From positions 4,456,179 through 4,520,178 of the forward strand of contig OX442428.1 of assembly GCA_949361645.1 (NCBI GenBank): a stretch of DNA of 64,000 nt, read 5' to 3'. The position numbers and the translations under genes were made by a program. The notes below the pieces were generated by a model. That model had not been told where the DNA came from and ran no database searches. It was given only the letters and a program-made list of their open reading frames with translations. Of the stretch, positions 41,440 through 64,000 are shown in pieces (positions within the stretch are counted from its first letter, which is position 1; each line of letters starts with the position of its first letter). Source of the stretch: Spongilla lacustris. Its lineage: Eukaryota > Porifera > Demospongiae > Spongillida > Spongillidae.

Positions 41440-42850
41440 CACTGTTATGCAGTTAAGGACAGAGCTAGCAGAAGTTCTCAAGGCCTACCCAGGCCCTCAT
41501 TTAGGCCAGGAGCAGGATAAAAATTTATATACATGTATAAAAGAATTACAAAAAAATGCCCAAGCCAGCTAGCATTACAATGAAGGTCACCATCTGTTGT
41601 CAGGACATCTTTTAATTGGTTGTGCTGGTTGAACTGTCACCCCAGTGTTTTTATTATCATTATTTATTAGTATTGAAAATAACAACAAAAAGCAACAATA
41701 CCAGTTGGTCATCATTTGGTTTTTTCCTTATGTAGACCTCATAGTTGTCACCATTGTGGTTGTATTTAGCTGTTCATTGCCTTAGTTGCCGAAAGAGTGA
41801 AGGGCTATGTGTCAGGGCAGGTGGCATCCCAGACAAGGAGCTTACCACACTGCCAGGGTACCAGGGTAATCTAATCAGGTCTTTTCCCATCAGAATGGAA
41901 AAGGTCAGAAGGCTTCAAGCGAGATGGAATCCAAGCAGCAGTCATGGCCCAGTGGATTATATCATTGATGGAGGCATGTCTATGGTGGTTGCCCCATCTT
42001 ACACAGCTATTGCAGCCACAGAGGCTGGAAGAGTGGCCTACCGAGTAGAGCACAAAAAATGTGTGAAGTATGCACACCACTTCAGGAGTTTTTGGATTAG
42101 AGACTTTAAATTTCTGACGAAGCTTGGTTATCTCAGTTGTAGTGCAACAAGGAAATGCGACTTCTGTAATGGGTTTTGCGGCCAGCATTCAGTGGAAGAC
42201 TTTTTTTCATGTAACTTGTTACATGTATAGTTAGTTGAGTATTTTTTAATGTGTGTAGATTCATCATGTAAACCAACAAAACAAAAAAAAAGAATAACAA
42301 CAAAACATCTTTATTGTCCAACCCTAAAGCAGAATCGAAGCTGCATTGCCCCACTGGATGGCAACTGACAATCTCTGAAGCAGATATAAAAGAGTTTTGT
42401 TTCACCCAACAACTGTCTTAGCAAAAAAACCCAGCTACTTTCTATGGCCACCATGGTGAAAAAGTGATTGAGTTACATGAGGTTGTACCTTCTCTGTTGA
42501 CTTCTGGCTGCTCAGCAACTGCTCCAGCTTTCTCTGCAACAACAGCAGAGTAGAAGGATGGTCCACTGAGTAGCTAGGAAGGTTGCATCGCACACTAAAA
42601 GTTGGCCACATTTCCAAGGAAATTCACTTTCCATCTGAGTGACAGGCCTGGGGCTCCAGATATGCTGGAACATGCATGTTATTATAAATATATTGTACTG
42701 AGTGTGGTTTGGAATATAACAACAACACTAATAACAGAACTTGAAAGTTTCTGGTTCAAAGGACTAATACATATGTCAGTACACAGGCCTATGCATGCTT
42801 ATTAAACTGAGTTCCCTATGTAACACATTGGAATACTCAGAGCCCACAGT
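41440..42850. other. Repeat remnants, no confident gene
   Basis: 41440-41515 is the inverted copy of 32690-32775. The plus-strand frame 41745-42230 (161 codons) contains [20 protein letters not shown], which vaguely resembles the Ala-rich C-terminal helix of the retrotransposon family here, but I do not call it. The remainder is unrecognised. Confidence 0.4.
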
Positions 42851-42852
42851 TT

Positions 42853-43716
42853 CTAATTTACATCCACATCAAGCATCACTGGTAGACAACATGCACAGAG
42901 TCGTTTGAGTGTTCCATTTGGAGGCTCAGTCTCTCTGCTATCCTTTAATTCAGGCTTTCGGCTACCCTTTAAATCAGGGTTTCGCAGTAGAGTGTAGACC
43001 AGATGCCACCTGTTGCGTGCCTTTCGGGAAACACGGAAATAACCTATGTTGGTGTGCAATGAGGGGAAACAAGATAATTATATGTACAGATTTTTAATCA
43101 AATACAGATGTATGGGCAATGACTGAATTCTTCAAGTTTTAAAAAGAGATTGTTACAATCTTGCAACTACGTAAATATTGCAGACTTGCTACAAGTACAA
43201 ATAAAATGAGTATGTTTGATAATTGCAGCCTGGGTACTGGCTGTAGTATTACATTACTGGCACATGATTGTCATAATGTTTGTCCCCCCCCACCCGCAAA
43301 TGCTTATATCTAAAACATATATCCTGCTTCATATATGTCTAGAAATGCTTCTTTTGTAAATGGCAATAATGCAAATGAATTTCCAATTATAGTAATATCC
43401 ACTGTAATGGAGTACTACATTTATCAGTTACAAGCATATACCCTCTAAAAGACAATTCTTAAAAATCCAACTTCCTACATTTTTGGCATTTTATAGTTAA
43501 GCATAGCCCAACCTTTACATTTGGCATTTGGCTACAACCAACTGGGCTTGTCATCAATGCGCAAATGTGGCAATTGCACGAACTGTCAAATTGCTAGCTT
43601 CCTTCTCAGATGTGGATGTTTCTATATCATGAACCAACTTACCTTTTTGATATAGTAACTTATCAGGCCCGTAGGCTGAAGGGGGGGGGGGGGGGGGGGC
43701 ACGATGGCTTCGGTCG

Positions 43717-43752
<36 letters not shown>

Positions 43753-46700
43753 CCCGTCCAGGCTAGTTCCGCCTGCCCAGCTTGGTTTCGCCTGCCGAGA
43801 CTGGTTCCGCTTCTTTCCGCTAACCATAAAAATAACTCGTAGCTAATGAATTAATTATTTTACATGACGTTATACAAAATTAGCGTCCGTTCTAAATGGG
43901 GCACCCATGGCCTGCAACAAACTGCAGTCAGAGTGGCGGATCCGGGTCATGCCAAATACATGCCGGTATATATGGTTCATTAATGCGTACACTTATCTGG
44001 CTATGAGACTAGTCTAACTTTCCTATCGATCAGGAAAGTTAACTCGCAAGCCAGATCAACATACTTCTTAATCGAACGGCACAACGCCGTTGTAAAGTAC
44101 TCTGTCACTGGCTCAAGCCGGACCTATACTTCGCAACGCTTGCTTCAAAACTTTCCGTAGTAGTCGTGAGCTATAGCTAGGCTCTGGAAACAAAAGTAAT
44201 TCTTGTCATATGTATAATATGTTTTTGGCATGCGTGTTTCTACGCAATTATACGATTTTTTGTGATTTCAACATTGCAAAAGTTGCAAAGCTGCTGGGGC
44301 TCCGCCCCAGACCCCGATGGGGGAGCTCACAGTGCTCCCCCATACCCCCTAGCTGGGAGAGAAGGCCCCTCCCCCACAAGTTAGTTCCACCCTCATTGTT
44401 TCCCCCCATCTCCCAACCGGCGTACGGGCCTGCTTATACAGGTCCTACTGGCCATATGATGTCATCTTCACTAATGGGTACAACATGATGATATTAGTGC
44501 TGATGAGTGCATTTGTGCTTTGAAGATTGGGACATTGAGTAATTCTTTTGGTGGCAAATCACCTACTAGGCTGACTCTCAGTGCTGTGGGGATGCCAAGC
44601 TCCAAGCATTTGGTATTATTCTTGCCTGTAACATCAGCTCTATCCTAATATGCTAACTAAAGTCAAATAGACATATCGGTATCAGTATCATGCATTTTTC
44701 TAAATCATTTGAAGGTGTATTTCTGCTTACCAGACTGCAAAAGATTCTATTGCAACAGTGATTTATGTGCCTATACCTGTAACATAATTCCAAAAGGATT
44801 TGTTTTGTTCAATTTTGTTGTTAGAATTTACAGGCATCCCCATAAAAATTAAAAGCAATTAATTCATTTGCGGCATAGTACATACAACAGCACAAGTACA
44901 AGGCAATATGAGCGCTATTAACTAGAATCATTTAAATGCAAATAAATATATCATAACTGAACTTATGTTAAAATTTAGTACCTGTATTATGTAATTATAC
45001 GCACAATGTAATGATAACCTGATTAACATAATAGCACAGTACCTTTGTATGGCTGAGCTTCTAATATAACATCATAGTTTTCTATGTGAAAATATAACAT
45101 TAAAATATTTGTAATTTGTGTATATGACATACCTTTGTGAGACATTCTATTACATCTAACTGGCTTGTCAGCAGTACTTTTAGCAGCATAGGCTTCAAGC
45201 AGAAGTTGTACAAAACAGTTTGCGATTGGATTGTTCTGTGTGAACTCCAAGTACAAAACTGCAATATAGGTAGCGTATCCTGCATATGGAGCCAAAATGG
45301 TGCATAAGTGCATATTATGACAAGGAGTAAATTTATGTAATGTACCTTTATCAGAACTCTCCTGCCCTCTAATGTACATGTTCCTGTCCATTCTCATCAG
45401 ATGAAATACGATGGTGATAACTGACCATATGAATCTCCAAAGTGAAGAAACTAATCCATGAAATGTGTTGAAAATGAAAAATACATAGGTCCACCAGTGA
45501 TAGAGTCGTCTGTTAATAGTTGATAAGAAAATGGTGCCACAAGGTATCAGTGTAAACTGTAGCTTACACATGAACAATGCTGGTGTCTTTTGCTGGTGGT
45601 GTTTTCTTCGAGTTATTTTTTCTCTTCATTTCAAATGTGCTGTCTTTGAACACGTGTGTACACATGCGGTTCTGGATATATGGCATAATTATTCTTCCTA
45701 TAATCAATACCATGCTGCAGAAAAACACAAGGAAAAAACTCATGATCTGTACTGCCAAGTTACGTTTCAGTTTCTAGCATAACATTCCTAACAGCTTTGT
45801 ACATCTACACATTAAATAGAGCAAAACATCTGGAATAAGGATTTACATAGAGTAGAGGTGTACAAAGGTAGTGTTTTTATAACAACATGCAAACCTCACG
45901 AAAAACCTAGCACACTCAATTGTGCAGTTACATATTGGAAGGTGAAATATTTAGAGAGAGTGGCATAATTGATAGATACAATTGTTGGATCCAGTATAAC
46001 ATTATCCATACCCGATACATGTATAGTGAATAAATAAAACAAAATTATCATATCATATCAAATTAGCATAAATATAGCATATTTATATTATATACATAAT
46101 TCTCCTATGCACATCCTTACATAAAGGAAAACGCCTTTGGTAGAATGAATGAGCGTGCAAATACAAACAGCAGCACAATGACAGCAATAGTAACTCCAAT
46201 GCCAAATACAGCAAAGAGAAATATTGTCCAAGCTGCAAATGGAGGGTTAAATTTGAATTCACTTTGAGAGATCTATGATTTCAAGCTTACAGATGATCAA
46301 GTAGGCCACTTGATGTGACATGTAGTCAAGGGATGATGCCTAGGTGATGTTATTACCAATGTACACAAATCAGATCAATAGATGTATCGTAAGTTACCAA
46401 TATCGCTTCTGGTGTGGGAATGGGCACATTAAAAGATGAATCATTGTATGATGAACTTGGTATGTGAAAGGATGAAAAATCTCCTCGAATGACATTCTTT
46501 AGGTCGGACCTAGAGACAGTTACAACATTTTAACCATTGTTACTTAATGCACAACATCACCATACCTTATGCACTTCACCATGTAAATTAGGATGCAGAA
46601 TACGATGATACTTGTAATGCAGGGACCAACAACAGCTGCAGCTGTATGGTGAAGGAAAGCTCTATTGGAAAACACATCAACTAGCACAGACGTATACCTT

Positions 46701-48185
46701 GAAGTCCCTTTTCAATCTTTGGAAGTGCATTCGATAATGAATTTATTTGATTCAATGCATTTACAAAAATAGCGACTAAAATCAGAAGAATACTGATCCA
46801 AAATAATGTTAGCTGAAGAGAATTGAATGGATTGTATGGTAAAGCACAGATAATTACATAAGTGTAAATGTCTGAAATCCCATTAAAATGCAGTTAATGA
46901 ATTTGTAAACACTAGAGAATCTTGATGGAATCAAATATTATAATTTATTACAACATAGTTTATATATTAGTTAAAGATTGTTGGTCTGTAATAATTCATC
47001 CTTGTGTGTATGCATATCAATGTGAATTGCTTACCTGATAAATCAGTACTAGCATAATAAAAATGGCACTGATGAACTTTGGGGAGAACTTGAATACCTC
47101 TATTGATTCAAAGACATGTTATTAAAACATAAACATGGTATTCCAAGCCTTATACTGTAATTCTCACTTGGTTGATACTTAATTGACAACAAAGCGCTGC
47201 TTTCTGGCCTGTTAATAGAGATTCATCATAAAGCAATCCAGAGCACGTGTGTACCTTTTATAACTCAACATTTCCTTTACCCATCTCTTGTAGTAATCTG
47301 TTTCATCTCTAGAGGGTTGAACCAGCTGCAAAAAGAAAAATTAATGAGCAGATGAACAAATACATCTGTAGCTCCAAGTACACTAAAGGCTGCTTGGAGG
47401 ACATTAAGAGATTTGGAACATTTCCACATTTCATGTATGCATCCTATGATGTAATATATCGCCAATATGAGCAGACATATGTAAGTTGGTAAATTCATTC
47501 CCAATTGGAGCCAAACCTACAATGGATGATAAAGAATAGATGTGTATGGCAACGTAGCTGAAAGTCATACTTGTGGGAGTGTACGTGGCTGCAGACATGA
47601 GAATTCAACAAACTGTATCACAACTTTAACTAACCTAGAGTTGGATTAAACAATGGTATGCATTAAAAGGCATGCTTCTCAAATAATGCATTCATCAAAT
47701 AGCACATACGTTACAGCACTGTAGATTGCTCCCATCATCATCCCTAACCAACGAATGGATGCATATAAGCACCCAAACAGAGGAAAGTAGAGAATTGCTT
47801 GGAGTAGCACAAAAAACCAGGTTGTGAGAACTGATAACAAAGGTAGAGCTATTTTGTGCACAAGATGAACTTTCAACTTACACTCAATAAATACTTCACC
47901 ATACTCATTGGCCACAGTTCCCAAGGATGGGGGGTTGTAAATATTTGCCAGAATACTTGAAGACATTGATGCAAAAGCCACTGCATTTATGATACGATGC
48001 TGTGTGATCCTCAACAAATTCACTGGCCTGTTATAGGAAAATTTACTAACACAGTTGCCAATACAACCCAAATTGCAGTGGTGTTACGTACACCTGTTGT
48101 AAAGTTTTAATGCAACTGGACTCATGCATCCCAAATAACCACAATATCAGGCCAAACAAAATAGTGTTATGTTTACTGACTGGTA
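42853..48185 (-). CDS. STRA6-like multi-pass receptor, about 15 coding exons resolved
   Basis: Vertebrate STRA6 is the plasma-membrane receptor for retinol-binding protein and moves retinol across the membrane. Exons from the 5' side: 47882-48027, 47715-47848, 47364-47516, 47255-47325, 47168-47208, 47035-47099, 46698-46812, 46566-46641, 46398-46509, 46121-46272, 45568-45714, 45346-45509, 45133-45279, 45043-45081, 42853-43043. All are GT-AG and every phase matches, giving about 584 codons. Family signatures: RPVNLLRITQHRIINAVAF (like the SPVDFL region), DETDYYKRWVKEML, the NRRLYHWWTYVFF-type segment, DKGYATYIAVLYLEFTQNNP, and the terminal RNRWHLVYTLLRNPDL. At least seven hydrophobic segments are visible. 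A first exon at about 48091-48185 (FGLILWLFG, then SPVALKLYNR) needs a one-base shift and is unsettled. Intron 14 holds a MITE. The ligand here is unknown. Confidence 0.85.
43664..44432. mobile_element. 769-bp hAT-like MITE in a STRA6-like intron, duplication CTTAT
   Basis: Left end CAGGCCCGTAGGC; right end inverted CAGGCCCGTACGCC. CTTAT flanks both sides (43659-43663 and 44433-44437). A G20 run is separated by about 19 bases from a C30 run. It contains the shared block GGGGCTCCGCCCCAGACCCC at about 44298. No transposase is visible. Confidence 0.85.
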
Positions 48186-48189
48186 CAGC

Positions 48190-51134
48190 AGGCTAAACTG
48201 GCACCTGCTCACATCTGGAAATCTAATTTCTCTTAGATGTACTTTTTATTGCAATAACATTGGATACAATACAAAACCAAACCAAAGGTTATTAAATGTT
48301 ATCTGTTGCATCAGCCCTGACTGGTTCCACTGCTACTGCTACTGCTACTGCTCGTTACTCAGCACATACATACGTGAGGTGTACAGTATTGCTTTTTGTA
48401 CCCAGGTTGATTATTTTTAAGTTGGGTAATGAGACTGGTCCTGCAGCATGACATTAATGTACGAACATCCAGTGGGAACCCCCGGGAACGTGGGTTCCTG
48501 TATAGTTTCCGCTAAGCATGCTATGTTAGAACAATTGTACATAAGTAGTGACAATTTTAGTTGCATCTATAAACAAAGATACAGGGTATGTTTATTCATA
48601 ACGAACTAGCTATCTTTCCTATTCATAAGATATACCGCTGTGACTAGCGCTTGCGGTTGACACTTTGTATACAAGGGTCCCGCAGGGGTGGTTGACTTCA
48701 ATTGTGTAAAGAACAAAGGTCTTTCTAACAATATTAATTCTAATCCTATTTTCCACGAAAGGAAGAGTCATTTTATGTTCCCCATAAATATCAAGTTGGT
48801 CCATCGACGTGATTTGATGGTTACACTGTCTTCAACATTCTACTTTGGTTCCCGTCAATAATTGTGTTTATACATGCTCACATGAGCAATCAATTTTCAT
48901 ACTAGCAGGGCAAATGGCTTGCACAAAACAACAAAACAAAACACCATTGCATTTGTTTTAACTCAATCTTGGTGTGAAAGTGTGGATACATCTTAACATT
49001 CAACCCAAATAGTTTTCTACTGTGACCCGAACCCACAATCTCAAATGCACTCACATGCACCACACTTTTATGCTGCATGCCCACGGACCTAAAATATCTC
49101 CAGCTCGTATAGCTGTTAACCAAGAACAAGCACAGCTTAATTGCCCATGCCTGGCACTCAATCCAATCTTTAGTCCTGGTGCCATGTTTTTCAATTAATT
49201 ACGCCCCTTTTAAGTTACCTATGCTGTTCCCATGCGGGAACATTGGTTCCCGCTAGGTTCTCGCAAAAAGTGATAACTACTTGATTTGATGCAAGAGTTT
49301 GGCTCACTATATTGGCTTCTATTCATTCGCATATGTCTTTTTAGCATACATGCAAGTACTTCAGAAATAAGCATTGCGGGAACTTCACGGGAACTACGCT
49401 TGCGCGTTCGTACGTTATCTAGCTTTTTTTTTTAAGCAAGCTAGCATAAAAAATACTTAATGGTCATAACAAATGACATGAAGCAGATGGTTATAGTGAC
49501 TTTGGCAGAGGATGAGAAACTACACTCACACTTGGAATTGATGTTTGATCCCATGGTTGCTAACAAAGCAAATGACAGAGGTCTGCCCTTATATAGCTGT
49601 GTGAAACCATGTGTGTTAAAGCCACTTCCAAGCTGTTATGTGTTCATCCACTACATGTAAACAATTATTAATGCCAAGTACCATGGATACATGCTAGACC
49701 AAGTGGAACAAGCTCAGTGTAAAAGCACATATACAACATTGACAGTGCCCAATTAATGAGGCATGTAAACTATTATGTGCTGCATGAACAAGCTAGAACA
49801 ATTATTAATAATGTGCCAGACTGAATTAAAGCAGAGCAGTTGAGAGATCACACTTGTGTTGCATTGGATGTGGCTGGCTAACCTAACACACCCATGGGCA
49901 CTATATGGTGAGGTGCACAGACAGCTGAGAATGTAAAAAGCAGCTTGATATTGATGTTCTATGCTTGGGCTGTTCATCATACCATACACATACAAGTAAA
50001 GCAGCAATACAGTGTTAATATGTGCACTTAACAGTGGTATGCTAAGTTCTACTGAGCCATTGGCTGGCTGACGGCAACCACACTACATGGTATGCTTGTT
50101 GTCATCAATTATGTACATATACATGTATATAACCTGTAATTTAAAATGTGTGCACCTACATGTGTACAGAATATACCCATCAATTGTTACATAAAGAACA
50201 TTGCTCATACTACCATTGCCCTGGATGCTATGTGGTCTTGTGTATGGATCTAACTCTGTTTTGGAAACCTGTTACTGTTTTCTCAACTCTCCTACTCTGA
50301 GTTCGCTTTGCATCAGAATCATGATAGCAGCTCTTTATAGACTCCAAGCATCACAATAGGTGTCTATACAACACTTGTGGTCTGGGGATGCTATTTCCAT
50401 GGAAACACTATTTCATGGGCTTATCTGCTGCAAACTGGCTTAGCCACATGATTGTGCTAAAATTATACGTCCACAAGAACTAGACGATGCAGAGGCCCAG
50501 AAAGTGGGAAGGGAAGGGCAGGAGAAAGCTGGTGCTGGTCTTTTTCATAATAGGCTGTACTATATTACAAGTTATAATTTAACGAATTTACAGTTGTACA
50601 TGCATACATGCTACCACATACATCACACATTATAATTATAACAACACACAAAATACACACAAGCAACTACATGCACATCAAATTTTTGTATATAGAAATA
50701 TTGTTATAAAGACGCTTGGTCAAATAGTGCCTGTACACGCATCTGTATAAACAGATACAGTGTAATTAATGCCCAATTCAACACTATGAGGGGTCCTATG
50801 CCCCTGCATCCCCTCCCTCCCCCACATTTCTACACAATGATAAAGGGGGAGGGACCTTATGAGTATGAGAACAGTTGTTCTTTTAACCTTTAATCTATTT
50901 CATCCTGCTTGTTTCCTCTTTTATTCGCAAATAATGCCGTGGTTACCATCAAAGTCGGGTATAAAATTGAGGAAACAGCAGAAAGCTTACTTTCAAGATA
51001 AAAACTGTTACTAAGTTATTGTGATTTAAAAGCGTTGTGTTCATTTGTGGATACCCGGTATATGCTACTTGCTACTGTAACTGAGTTCAATTCTTGAAAT
51101 ATTGATTCTGACATTTTTAAAAGATCTAGTGAAG
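48190..51134. other. No confident gene
   Basis: Upstream side of the STRA6-like gene. Short open frames without family resemblance. GGGAAC/GTTCCC words recur at 48470-48500 and 49230-49395. A promoter for the STRA6-like gene should lie here, but I see no diagnostic element. Confidence 0.5.
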
Positions 51135-56735: not shown

Positions 56736-59700
56736 CTAGTCCAGCACATCAAGCTGAAAGTCACCAATCAAATCCACCAGTTGATCTGATGTAAAGCGAA
56801 CTATGACTTGGAACCGCCCTTTCTTCAGAGGAACAGTTTCCAAAATGGCTTCAGTAGGGCCCCAGGGGGAGACAGGTCTGAATATAAATATGATGAAATA
56901 AATACCTCAGTTCAATGTGCAGTAATACTACTAATAGTACATAACTGGATACTAGGAGGGAAAGCATTCCTGTTGCTGTTGGGATACAATAGCCTTACTA
57001 AATTGTAATTCCTCGCATTTAAGCTAAGCTCCTTCTAAGCTATGAGTGTTAAGGCATCTAAAATGTTTCTGTACTACAGAGCTCTTAGACATGAATAAAG
57101 TGGTCTTGATATCACTGCAGGGTTCTTGGCTAGATAAGGAAATAATTTCACATGTAGGAGGGCCCCATGTAGTAGTATTAGTGCACATGCACCACAGTAC
57201 TATTATAACACACCCAACAGACTGATCGATGTCCTGAACATGCCCTCCACCATGAAGGTGGAAGACTCCATTGGTGAGTCTCCGGCCAAGGGTGTTGACA
57301 AGCTTGACCTTCACAACAACAGGTTTGTACAAGTGGAGGGCACCAGTTGGAACATCAATAACAATATCAGGTGTCTGCCATGTGAGTGAGTGTGCATGTT
57401 ATTGCTGTCATGGTTACCACAATGCTCTCATTACCTTGATTCTCACACTTTTGCTCTTCACTTGGCAACAGTCCCCAACTCCATCGGCATTGGTGATAGC
57501 CATGGCTACGAACTTTAAGAAGCCTTCTCCCCCACTGATCCAGAGGTAGTCTTTGGACTCCACAGGCAACACACACTCCTTAACTGCACAACAATGGGAT
57601 AGTCACATGACATGTGACATACAGTCACATGACATGAGAGGTATGATTTATCACATGATATCGGAGTATGATCATATGACATAGGGAAGTTTGATCTCAT
57701 GTGCAACACAGTAGGTATGATGAGAGGCCGTATGGTCACATGACACAGGTGATATGGTCACATGACACAGGAATATGGTCACATAAGGAAACATAGGCAC
57801 CATCACTACAGGTCAGCTACATGGCTGCTGCAATATAAACAAAATATTTACATGTAGCTACTACACACTAACCTTCCCCGACATCCATGGTAAGGCTCTG
57901 GTCCAGACTGCACCTCATGGCGTGGCCATGGTCCCCAGTGTAGGTGGTGGCTTGCCCTGTCACCAGCAGCTTGCACTGCACACTTCTGGCAGCCATGTTT
58001 GTTAGCGTTATCTTCACTGCAAAGTTGCTCCCAACAATGACATCATCGGGTATGCCCAAACCAAGGGATACCTCCGTAGCAGCTGGATAAAAATGACATC
58101 ATAACTCAGCAATGGTTCTCAGTATTCCTCTTCCCCAGTCCATCATACACTTCCTCTAACTTGCCAAACTACTTTCCAATCACATGCCACACCCCCACAT
58201 TTTAATCAGTTCTTCATACACCTTGTACCCCATGTGCTTACATTTTACCGATGCACCATGTCCTCATCCCCAGTCCAACACCAAATTTCTCCTCCCCAGG
58301 CCACACTTACATGTCAGGGGTGTATGTCCAATGCTCCTGTAGTCCATGGTGAGGTTTTGTGGGACCAGACCACCTCCCACAGCCTTGGTGCAAACCTTCC
58401 TGCCCACCAGAGATGGGTCCACACTGGCCAGAGTAAGGCTCTTGTCCTTGTGCAGCAGGTAGCCACGCACCTGGCTACTGACGGCACCAGCAACCCTCTC
58501 CACATTATAGTGCATCCCCATGCCCCTATTCACTGCCAACTGGGGGGCGGGGCCCAGGGACACGCCCATTTCTCCTGGCCCCTCCCATGGAGGCGAAGCA
58601 TCCAACACCTGCCAGCCACTGAAGTCTTTTGGGAGGTCAGGGCGCGCGATGTACACCTCGTTCAGCACATGGAACTGCCTGAAAGTCACATGGGGATTAC
58701 ATGGAGGTCACATGGGGATCACAAGGAGGTCACATGGAGGTCACACAGGGATCACATGGGGGTGATACAGGTTAACAAATGCTGCATTGGATCAAATGTG
58801 CCACAGTTAAAGAGACTAACCAGACAGAGTTAGGACTGGGGACCTCTCTCCCGTCCTCAGTGAAGTACTGAATGATGTCCTTTCCAACAGATGAACAGGC
58901 AGAACCATATATGGTAACTGAGCGGGTGGGGATGCCAATGGAGCGCAGCACTGGGAAAGGGTGGGCGTGGCTAAGTCAGGCACTCCACTCATCCCCAGCC
59001 CTTACTGCATCATTGTTCTGCACTCTTTTTTACCTCTCCTCTCCCACATCCCCACCTTCCCTACTCACGTGAGGTCAGTACCCCAGAAGACACCCAGCAC
59101 TGCCCATACTTCACATGGCATTTAGTGGTCCTGTACTCTGATAGTATCTGTGCTGAACCAACCCAGGAGTGAGGGGACTTTCCCCTGCTGTAGTCCCCAG
59201 AAACGTTGTTCACTAGAATGCCACGCCCATCCTGGGATTGACTCTGGCAGCAAAGTATTGACTAACCTTTGGAATGAGCATCACTGTGAGATGTGTACAC
59301 ACTATTGCACCCCTAGGCCTCCCTTCCACATAGCACCCTCCCTTCCACATGTAGCACCCTCCCTTCCACATAGCACCCTCCCTTCCACATGTAGCACCCT
59401 CCCTTCCACATTAGCACCCTCCCTCCACATGTAGCACCCTCCCCTCCACATGTAGCACCCTCCCCTCCACATGTAGCACCCTCCCCTCCACATGTAGCAC
59501 CCTCCCTTCCACATGTAGCACCCTCCCTTCCACATGTAGCACCCTCCCTTCACATGTAGCACCCTCCCCTCTACATGTAGCACCCTCCCCTCCACATGCA
59601 GCACCCCTCCCCTCCACATGTAGCACCCTGCTTTCCCACCAATGTCCGCATCAATAGCTTCCTTTGCAGCATCTCTTTCCCTCCCTCTTCTCCTCACCAC

Positions 59701-62700
59701 CTCCCCTCACTCCTATATGCTCCGCTCACTTTCACTGGATCAAAGCTATCTTCCTTCATCTTCTCCAGCAGGCTCAAGGCCACCTCTAATGTATCCTTCA
59801 TGAACTGGGAGTGTTGCCACGGGCGACCATAACTGCTGTCAGCTGTTCCAATCCATATTTTCCCAACGGTGGAAAGAATGTACTCTTCTAGATCCCCAAC
59901 TGGCCCACGATAGTGACATGTGTCAGCTGTTGAGGCAATAGGGTGAGAGGGAGGAGAGGGAGATGGGGGAAAGGGGGAGGTAGGAGGTGAAGGAGTGAAG
60001 AGGGAGAAATGGAGGAAGGAGTGGGAGAAGAAGTGAGAATGGTCAGAGAAGTAATGAGACAACAGAAGTGCCCAATCATCACAATTCTCACCAGTACACC
60101 AAGGGTTAAAGAGGATGATGACATCAATGCCATTCTCCACCACCATCACATGACCTCCTCTGTCCAAGGTGAGTACCACGTAGTACCTAACAGCAGGAGA
60201 CAGGCCAGTCACCCACACATGTAATAACTATATCATTGTCACACACACCACACACACATGTACACATGGACATGCCACACATAACATATGTACAAACCCA
60301 TACACACATGTACATGTACTATGCATAACCAATGTGATTGTACATACATACATACATACATAAACTCCACACACCCATGTACACATGGACACACCACACA
60401 TACGATACATACACAAACCCATACACACATGTGCTATGCATAACCACACACCCCACCTCCCAATGGGGGCATCAGCGGGGGTAGTAAGCTCCACCCTGAT
60501 CCTGCTCCCCTCCACCACAGCGCTAGCATCCACTTGGAACGTGTGGTGCTTCTTTGACAAGCTCCGCGTGCCGAGGTTAAAGGTCGCCCGTGAGGTGAAC
60601 CTGGTGCTGGAGGGCAGACTCTTCCCCAGGAGGAGGAAGAAAGTGAACGACTGTCCCCTCCTGACAATGAGGCCACCACTGTCATATCTGTCTGTCTGGT
60701 GAACACGACGGTTGCCACTGGCGTTCAGGTCGACGCCTGAGATGGTGTCTATGATGGAGAGGCTCTCCTGGTGGTCTTTGCCTCCCACCATGATGAAGTC
60801 CATCAGGGAGGCGGGGCCATCTGTACCCTCCCGGGCCTTTGTCACCGTCACCTGCGAGCAGGTGGACATTATACCCACATTTAAATGAGCAGATGGACAC
60901 AGGCTTTTACAGTAACTTCCTACTCAGGTGGACATGCTCCCTCCCTCAAGTGAGCAGGTGGACATGCACCATCCCAAAGTGAGCAGGTGGACATGCTTCC
61001 TCCCCGAAATTAACAGGTGGACATGATTCCTCCCCAAAGTAAGCAGGTGGACATGCTCCCTCCCCAAAGTTAACAGGTGGACATACTCCCTCCCCAAAGT
61101 GAACAGGTGGACATACTCCCCCTCCCCCCCCCCCCCCGAAGTGAACAGGTGGATATGCTCCCTCCCTCAAGGTGGACATAACCTCACCCACCACACCCTC
61201 ACCTCTGCCTCTCCTGTCACCAGCTGCACATGATCACTGCCAAGGCCAATGACCAATCGAAATGTGCCAACCTTGAGACCAATGATGTTGAATGTGTAGT
61301 AGATGGTGGCATTGGCCCCAATATCTCCTATCTCATGAACCAGATCATCTAGGGTAAGTGTATGTGTACAGATATTGAATGTGTGGTGCACATTTGAGTG
61401 AAGGAGAGAACAGGTTTAATAAAATGGCAGTGAAATATAGTTACCATGGTTACCATGCAACAGGTTGTCGTTCTCCACATTGAGTGACACGGCCTCCATC
61501 TTGAAAGGGAGGGGGTTGGTGAACTGGACCGTGACTTTGGCCTCCTCCCCAAGACCCAGGTGGGACGAGGTCTGAACCTCCATCTTTGGGGGGTGGGGCC
61601 CACGTACACCTTGTGCTCAAACACCTGGGTGGTCCCGCTGTGGGCCAGGAGGATGTCAAACAGCAGGTACACCCTCTCCCCAGGGAACTCTGTGAATACT
61701 CGCTCCCCAGCCTCCATCTTGACCACCTCCGTGGAGCTCACGTTGATGCGTTGCCTCACCACCTTCTTGTCCACACTCCGCAGGACCTTCCCCGTGTACA
61801 TGACGGCCGAGCAGGACACATGGCCGCACACCTCCACTGTGCGGCTGCCGCAGTTCTTGATGTGGACTTCCATGGCTATGTCGCTGCCAAGACGGTGGGA
61901 GACCTCTGGTACGTGGAATGAGACCTCGTACTTGTCCTCCACCAGCTCCTTGTAGTTACGGTACAAGGCATGACGCTCAAGGTCTGAGCCATCCGGGTAC
62001 TTGTACTGAGAGGGAGGGGAAGGGGAGGAGAGGGAGAGGAGGGGGAGAGGGAGAGGAGGGAAGAGGGAAGGAAGGGTGATTTGCAAAGCTAAGAGAGGCA
62101 CACTTATATGATAGGATTTTGACTTGTACATATTTTACTAGACAATGTACATTACAATTACAGTGCCACCCACTAAAAGAGATGGAAAATGCAATTTCGC
62201 ATGTTTTTGATGATATCTCAATAATGTTATGTAATGCTGTCGCCAATTACATTTTTGGATTCAGCATCTATTTCTGAACAGAGTACAATATGTTTTATTG
62301 GATTATGACATGTAAACAAAACAATATGTAACTGTAAACAACTGCTTGTCAGGTTGGATGAGGCTATAACTCCTCTATTTATTGCAGTTAAGGTCCCATT
62401 TTTTTTAAATATATGTAACCCATACAGGTAGGTACACAAGGTATTGTATTGAGTTTCTAAGCCCCATTCAATGTGGAGATTGGTAGTAAAGTATGAAATT
62501 TTGGAGGGAGGCGGGGCTTCGTGCAATTTAGTTTGACTTAAGGAATGAAAATTGTCCCAAGGCATGACTAATGTGTATTATCTTTTTACAGCCAAATTGA
62601 ACCACAACTGCCGCACAGAAAGGAACTTAACTTGCCGATTAAACATGGACTGGCAACACCCATGTAGGAGGTGGGGCACCCTGAGTGTGATATGGATGTT

Positions 62701-64000
62701 GCTTAAAGATCTACCTACGAATTGTATCACGTGACTGTGACCACTATTTAATCACGAGATTAAGTCTTAGAACGAGGTCATGTGTGCATGCATTTGCAAA
62801 GAGAAATAGGTAGTGGATCGTAGTTTTAGTTCTGCAGGTGAAAACATTGAATATTTTCACAATCGATATTTGCAAACTTTCAAATCAGTTAATTTGTTAT
62901 GTTAATTAGCATGATTAATAATCTATTATATTGAAGGAGACAAATTTGAGGGAACCAACCAACTTAGTTCAAAAGTTATTCTTGTTCAAAAGCCTTGCAT
63001 TTAGTTGTGGACACACATGTATATAATGGTCCTGGTATCAGTTAAACTTTTAAAACCTCTACATGTAAACCATTTATTGCAATTACATGTAAGAAAGAGT
63101 ACATTGAACTGGTGCCCAGACCCGGTCCCTTTGCTCCTGCCCACTCACCATGTCCGTGACATCAACCCTCTGATCACTGCCCACTGCCTTGGTGGAGATG
63201 TCCTTACCCACCGTGGTGGTGTCCACTTGGAAGAGGCGGGGCGCCCCATCTTCCAGTATGAACTTCTTGATGTCAGCATTCACCTGCGGGGAGAAAAGAG
63301 AGAATTGAAGGCTTAATCCTTCTTACATCCAACCCCACCCTTTTGGGAGCGTACAAATTTAATAAATCTAGATATGCGTACAATAGACCACTTTTGGCCC
63401 TGTAAAGGTGTAGGTGTGGAGAGTGAGATGGTGTGGTGAGGTGGGTGGTATGGTGAGGGAGATTAATGGCATATTGGCGCAAATAATATACAATCAAATT
63501 GACCTTACAAGTTAGCCACACCCAGCACACACCTCAGCGATCACGTGTCATAAATCACTGAGTGCCCTTCCTTTACAGCCTTGAGGGAGGTGGGACCTAG
63601 GCAGTATCCCCCGCCCTGAGGCGACTCCTCCTGGGGCGTGGCATCCACCACCTGCCAGCCCTCAAACCCTGCATATAGGTCTGGGCGCTGAATGTGAACC
63701 TCGTTCCAACAATGGAAGTTCCTGTGCAACATGACAAAGCAAACCATTAACTTGATGAGGCCTCCAGTGTATGAAAGCAAACCTTACAACATGTATTTAC
63801 CCCCTTGTACAAGTATGCACTAACAGCTACAGTATCCCTACTTATCTAATCGCGATCATGAATATCTGTAAATTGTTTTTGCACTTCTATGCCTTCTGCA
63901 CCTTGCCCTCTGCGTTTAGCGTATACATACAAAAAATTACATCATTTGTATGAGCAGATGGGAAATATTGTGACATTACACGACTCACCATACGGTGTCC
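56736..64000 (-). CDS. Tandem transglutaminase: module A (partial) fused to complete module B
   Basis: Transglutaminases are Ca-dependent Cys-His-Asp enzymes that form Gln-Lys isopeptide bonds. The gene runs off the right edge. Module A exons: 63989-64000, 63533-63721 ([23 protein letters not shown]), 63149-63283, 61454-62005, 61203-61348. Module B exons: 60457-60851, 60092-60186, 59730-59926, 59069-59266, 58821-58950, 58311-58678, 57873-58082, 57435-57583, 57214-57374, 56736-56877. B is about 681 aa, the usual length. It has the N-terminal sandwich ([11 protein letters not shown]), VIILFNPWC, catalytic KYGQCWV (Cys about 286), QFHVLNEV (His about 342), WQVLDASP (Asp about 365) and two C-terminal barrels. 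The exon at 60851 supplies the last strand of A's second barrel (VTVTKA) and then B's start, so the modules appear continuous. All phases match only if three single missing bases are allowed (near 63545, 61590, 59235). Two adjacent genes are the alternative. Confidence 0.8.
58680..58770. repeat. Minisatellite beside a 3' splice site
   Basis: Repeats of GTCACATGGGGATCACA and GGTCACATGG begin at the acceptor of the catalytic-His exon (58678) and extend into the intron. Confidence 0.8.
59310..59640. repeat. 21-bp minisatellite in transglutaminase intron
   Basis: About 14 units of TAGCACCCTCCCTTCCACATG, with CCCCT/CCCTT variants, between exons 59730-59926 and 59069-59266. Open frames across it are artefacts. 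Confidence 0.95.
60925..61165. repeat. Minisatellite in the inter-module intron
   Basis: About 8 units of GAGCAGGTGGACATGCTCCC plus TCCCCAAAGT, in the intron joining module A to module B. The GAGCAGGTGGACAT part also occurs at the acceptor itself (60855-60869). Confidence 0.95.

Follow-up and report, generated by a model that had tools for sequence, protein, structure and literature searches.

The question raised by this locus of Spongilla lacustris is whether two transglutaminase modules, A and B, are encoded in a single polypeptide, as was proposed in an initial annotation of the 64,000-nt stretch analysed here (C15:4456179-4520178, hereafter the window). The transglutaminase gene lies on the minus strand and the exons of that annotation were all found in place. 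Our analyses make it likely that a sponge two-module transglutaminase gene, with an altered module B in Spongilla, is present here as two near-complete tandem copies, of which the window copy would be a recently broken daughter. The features of the window copy, and two fragments related to it, are as follows.

63989..64000, minus strand: 3' end of exon A1 (window copy), the exon of the N sandwich and of the core with the catalytic Cys, module A
63533..63721, minus strand: exon A2, with the His and Asp of the module A triad; 7-nt deletion relative to copy 2, then TGA
63149..63283, minus strand: exon A3, VNAD motif of module A
61454..62005, minus strand: exon A4, encoding the C-terminal barrels of module A; relative to copy 2, a C run has lost 1 nt
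61203..61348, minus strand: exon A5, end of module A, final residues GEAE; 146/146 bases identical to copy 2
60852..61202, minus strand: linking intron A5-B1, 351 bp, phase 0, with minisatellite-like repeats
60457..60851, minus strand: exon B1, predicted last strand of module A (VTVT), linker and N sandwich of module B
60092..60186, minus strand: exon B2 of the two-module model
59730..59926, minus strand: exon B3 of the two-module model
59069..59266, minus strand: exon B4, with the Cys of the module B triad; relative to copy 2, 1-nt deletion upstream of this Cys
58821..58950, minus strand: exon B5 of the two-module model
58311..58678, minus strand: exon B6, with the His and Asp of the module B triad; VNAD calcium motif replaced
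57873..58082, minus strand: exon B7 of the two-module model
57435..57583, minus strand: exon B8 of the two-module model
57214..57374, minus strand: exon B9 of the two-module model
56736..56877, minus strand: exon B10, which contains the fused model's stop codon
40901..41017, minus strand: isolated fragment resembling exon B8 (90% over 39 residues), a relic of a further duplicate
93461-92366 (window coordinates continued): transglutaminase 3' fragment, located by tblastn with the copy-2 protein

When the sequence was read past position 64000, exon A1 was found to extend in full from 64899 to 63989, to begin with ATG and to complete module A, with stops closing the frame upstream of this ATG within 80 codons in both copies. 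Additional modules had been thought possible in this direction; the extension adds this one exon only, giving two modules in all. A third upstream module was further discarded because genome-wide searches of the 248,560,934-base assembly with three Pfam models (core, N and C; counts being lower bounds), together with tblastn with the copy-2 protein over 49 kb beyond the window, detected there only copy 2 and the 3' fragment among the matches listed. Elsewhere in the genome, a third transglutaminase-like gene having few introns was observed (L001, C22:124005-127334).

Mitochondrial sequences were also recognised in this assembly. Contig C51 (L021-L023) corresponds to a mitochondrial genome of 28,044 bases with TGA as Trp and 24 tRNAs (ARAGORN), in which atp9 occurs, by our own reading, as an open frame (L022:1926-2162); this gene is reported from 22 demosponge mtDNAs with a single exception (PMC2444032). 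Nuclear contigs C15, C2, C3, C1, C12 and C17 contain six short pieces resembling COX1, every one with standard-code stops, which may be nuclear insertions of mitochondrial DNA.

The second copy is located at 101710-94267 (window coordinates continued), 37 kb upstream of the window copy, and corresponds to a single open model of 15 exons and 1326 residues with 14 GT-AG introns. The same exons occur in the window copy, and the main aligned pieces of the two are 83-90% identical, introns included. Just before copy 2, a set of exons whose spliced translation matches Ku_PK_bind (Pfam, 106.9 bits) appears to represent the end of a Ku80-like gene; upstream of the window copy, our reading of the alignments suggests a broken or truncated remnant of the tail of that gene, and copy 2 therefore looks like the parent. 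A neighbouring stretch is duplicated too (44434-48213 versus 69-75 kb) and the region looks like an active tandem array that would have duplicated the entire two-module unit. Stretches within 42577-48213 of the window were also seen to recur within 66005-74787 (continued) with 72-92% identity, as part of the same duplicated array. A haplotypic false duplication was not favoured since both copies belong to one N-free stretch and show a 5% silent-site difference, their upstream flanks differ and duplication of the surrounding region follows a mosaic pattern.

Relative to copy 2, the window copy carries a 7-nt deletion in A2 and 1-nt deletions in A4 and in B4, as well as one in-frame 6-nt difference in A1; when read straight through, its first stop is met at residue 364. 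Because of the three frameshifting deletions, the window DNA as assembled does not contain one open two-module protein, and the suggestion of two active sites is not supported for this copy, the frameshifts hitting both modules. For exon A2, use of a possible donor (GTAAAG, present only in the window copy) would skip the deleted place in frame, and was rejected as a rescue since the other two deletions would not be helped by it. When the window copy was read in the frame of copy 2, no further stops were found, and the 49 amino-acid changes between the copies comprise 12 specific to the window copy, 11 specific to copy 2 and 26 that could not be assigned. This even distribution, together with the lack of extra stops, is why the frame of the window copy looks to have been lost recently. 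The dN/dS between copies is 0.312 overall, with 0.415 for module A and 0.226 for module B, the value for module A suggesting that constraint there is not strong.

The same deletions could also correspond to assembly errors, or to one allele of a polymorphic gene, with the window copy being intact in life. Indeed, one of them sits in a C run and the copy displays neither other nonsense changes nor an excess of amino-acid change. However, two of the three are outside homopolymers and one is 7 nt long; moreover, the published Spongilla lacustris assembly is HiFi-based with a QV of 53.6 (PMC12141999), which makes three base errors in 4 kb unlikely if that assembly is the one analysed here. An intact window copy is thus rather unlikely, and a recent loss of its reading frame is the interpretation retained below.

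At the junction between the modules, sequence analysis agreed with the initial annotation: the exon 61348-61203 ends with GEAE at a phase-0 donor GTGAGG, and the exon starting at 60851 begins with VTVTKA after CTGCTCGCAG, also in phase 0. From copy to copy, 28 of 338 positions differ in the gap between these exons (8.3%, versus 1.7-13.1% for the other 13 introns) while the flanking exons differ at 0/146 and 8/395 positions, a comparison in which the A5-B1 gap appears to behave like the gene's own introns. In both copies, translation could nonetheless continue past the end of A5 until a stop close by (19 residues, sequence omitted), and an in-frame ATG occurs 21 nt before the B1 acceptor with another one inside B1, so that separate proteins are possible. 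The locus would then be composed of two adjacent single-module genes, A ending by the A5 read-through and B starting from its own ATG after 340-351 bp of intergenic sequence; single-module sponge transglutaminases do exist (P0256, Halisarca). This arrangement is nevertheless improbable, because neither AATAAA/ATTAAA nor a TATA box is found in the gap of either copy and because the junction splice sites are good, the donor and acceptor ranking 4th and 2nd of 14 in the window copy and 5th and 2nd of 14 in copy 2 by leave-one-out scores trained on this gene's own sites. It is further opposed by relatives whose frames continue across the junction, in agreement with a single chain.

These relatives were found by a protein database search in which 520 matches were obtained, the best 120 of them being considered, and 7990 candidates were scored. 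The top match, P0001, has 1341 residues in one frame on a 4354-nt contig, presumably a transcript, and shares 43% identity over 99%; the Sycon ciliatum gene model LOC135828093 (P0003) shares 31% identity over 98%, and P0005 is a partial JGI protein in which the end of A leads into B. In each of these sequences the A barrel is followed by a linker and then by B, with the barrel segments VTGEKEVEVV, RTATDIDVVS and VAGVTEVVVD, in a sample of three that includes a gene model (Sycon, the only one with an organism name) and a partial protein (P0005). In the predicted model of P0005 (mean pLDDT 84.4), residues 164-173 form the last barrel strand, residues 176-183 are of low confidence and the first strand of module B starts at 190. 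This model has a strand homologous to the VTVT strand of exon B1, the matching segment being the last barrel strand, in agreement with the earlier proposal that VTVT completes the strand; GEAE and VTVT are thus modelled as parts of the same barrel strand, split by the phase-0 intron. In a Foldseek search with this model, the top match was transglutaminase 3 (8oxw), with a TM-score of 0.83 by target length.

Phylogenetic analyses gave further indications on the age of the pair. A tree of 34 rows united the A modules of Spongilla, P0001 and Sycon in one clade (100/99) and placed the B modules of the same three, together with that of P0005, in another (95/83). Both persist in a 40-row tree to which six rows were added (100/99 for A, 96/90 for B); in this tree the A clade has a chytrid and a transcriptome sequence as neighbours (90/78), and the Halisarca single-module P0256 and a nearby JGI sequence fall outside both clades. 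A joint A+B clade is absent from the 40-row tree, yet is not rejected (p-AU 0.296). The Spongilla pair has its A module in the A clade and its B module in the B clade, the pattern taken to define a sponge two-module protein. Since A groups with A and B with B across species, the pair would be older than the Spongilla-Sycon split. The idea of two modules in one polypeptide therefore stands for the open model of copy 2, with the three junction-crossing relatives and the A and B clades in its favour, but not for the frameshifted window copy; as judged from these sequences, the sponge gene probably encodes two transglutaminase modules in one chain and the fusion is probably real.

It had been stated that animal transglutaminases are single-module enzymes. 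This does not hold for database entries, where two-module gene models of several phyla occur; among the non-sponge ones inspected, several resemble merged tandem genes. As in the sponge, models of Spea, Mizuhopecten, Crassostrea, Dinothrombium, Anopheles and Liolophura have two transglutaminase sets per predicted protein. When these six, hand-picked from listings, were placed in the 34-row tree, the modules of one protein were sisters in 4/6 (Spea, Mizuhopecten, Crassostrea and Dinothrombium) and fell apart among single-module genes in Anopheles and Liolophura, none of the six having the A/B clade pattern of sponges. Two-module models might thus recur through annotation merging of tandem genes or through young local duplication, the sponge case being one more example, an explanation in line with the many non-sponge models, with the sister modules and with the long linkers (86-285 residues with an internal Met) of 4/7 inspected proteins. 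It is very improbable for the sponge gene, whose modules cluster by position across species and whose linkers are of 27-46 residues in 4/4 sponge proteins, although linker length alone cannot separate the groups since the other 3/7 non-sponge linkers have 3, 16 and 46 residues. Among the literature matches listed (titles and abstract openings, chiefly open-access), no two-module animal transglutaminase was described.

Having retained the fused model, we compared its domains with known transglutaminases. Pfam analysis of copy 2 detected the expected domains with one exception: module B passes all cut-offs (Transglut_N 49.8, core 33.4 and C 35.2 bits), as do the core and C of module A (37.6 and 36.1 bits), but the Transglut_N of module A scores 24.5 against a cut-off of 27. 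Similarly, P0001 and P0003 each have two core stretches, two C stretches and one N stretch, that of module B, passing alone, and the N domain of module A is divergent in sequence. The catalytic Cys, His and Asp, aligned to C277, H335 and D358 of TG2, are present in both copy-2 modules, and the family spacing claimed for module B was recovered, with 56 residues from Cys to His; across seven sponge modules this distance ranges over 56-61.

The two modules differ at the calcium-ligand positions of TG2. In copy 2, module A keeps SAHDTNHN and VNAD together with the equivalents of N398, D400, E452, D306, N308 and N310, with E447 replaced by Asp (TG2 numbering). It has no loop at TG2 230-233, so that part of one calcium loop is absent and A is a near-canonical rather than a fully canonical head. 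In module B, SACSS and AVSSQ are found instead of the calcium motifs; the equivalents of N398, D400, E447, E452, D306, N308, N310 and D233 are all replaced or absent, E447 and E452 being without any counterpart, and those of N229 and D232 are retained. Among the four sponge B modules, these motifs are lost in Spongilla only and kept in P0001, P0005 and Sycon. The Trp of Spongilla B (TG2 W241) is shifted by one position in the multiple alignment and kept in another alignment. That copy 2 would have two active sites, as first suggested, is thus doubtful: the triad of module B is kept but most of its calcium-site residues are gone, and its function as an active site is questionable on this basis. 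Between the copies, module B still shows less divergence at amino-acid than at silent sites; this comparison, based on two young copies, suggests that its function has shifted and has not simply decayed.

Several known systems offer points of comparison. The factor XIII A chain, which acts as a dimer of two modules, has the same four-domain fold and triad (E 7e-83 with module A, 2e-65 with module B); its modules are separate chains, whereas those of the sponge are fused and one is without most calcium-site residues. Transglutaminases 2 and 3 share the fold and catalytic residues of the sponge modules (E 8e-90 for module A versus TG2 chain 4pyg) and differ in being single-module. Erythrocyte protein 4.2, matched by the sponge modules at E 2e-48 and 9e-46, is a transglutaminase fold with no activity, a binding role and a lost triad; it is a single module, and Spongilla module B instead keeps the triad and loses the calcium residues.

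These comparisons suggest a scheme in which two animal-type transglutaminase modules would be joined by a phase-0 intron splitting the last strand of the second C-terminal barrel of module A. The chemistry would be that of a Cys thioester formed with a Gln side chain, followed by transfer to a Lys or an amine. The ancestral form may have had two calcium-dependent heads on a short tether, acting on partners or holding them in a bivalent manner. In Spongilla, module A would have remained a near-canonical head, and module B, with its triad kept and most calcium-site residues lost, may have come to work without calcium, to work weakly or to serve in binding alone, the window copy being a daughter duplicate that would have lost its frame recently. 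We tentatively propose, with somewhat less than even confidence, that the sponge two-headed transglutaminase predates the split between calcareous sponges and demosponges and that its heads have divided tasks in the freshwater sponge, A being calcium-switchable and B, a triad without the calcium switch, being constitutive or binding.

Transglutaminases glue animal tissue, clots and skin. If old in sponges, the covalently paired form would imply that gene fusion doubled the enzyme at an early stage of animal evolution, and it would provide a natural experiment on the function of a second head and on whether a triad can outlast calcium control. Finally, the sponge wound response induces genes annotated as transglutaminases (PMC8789774), and the two-module gene may therefore bear on sponge healing.
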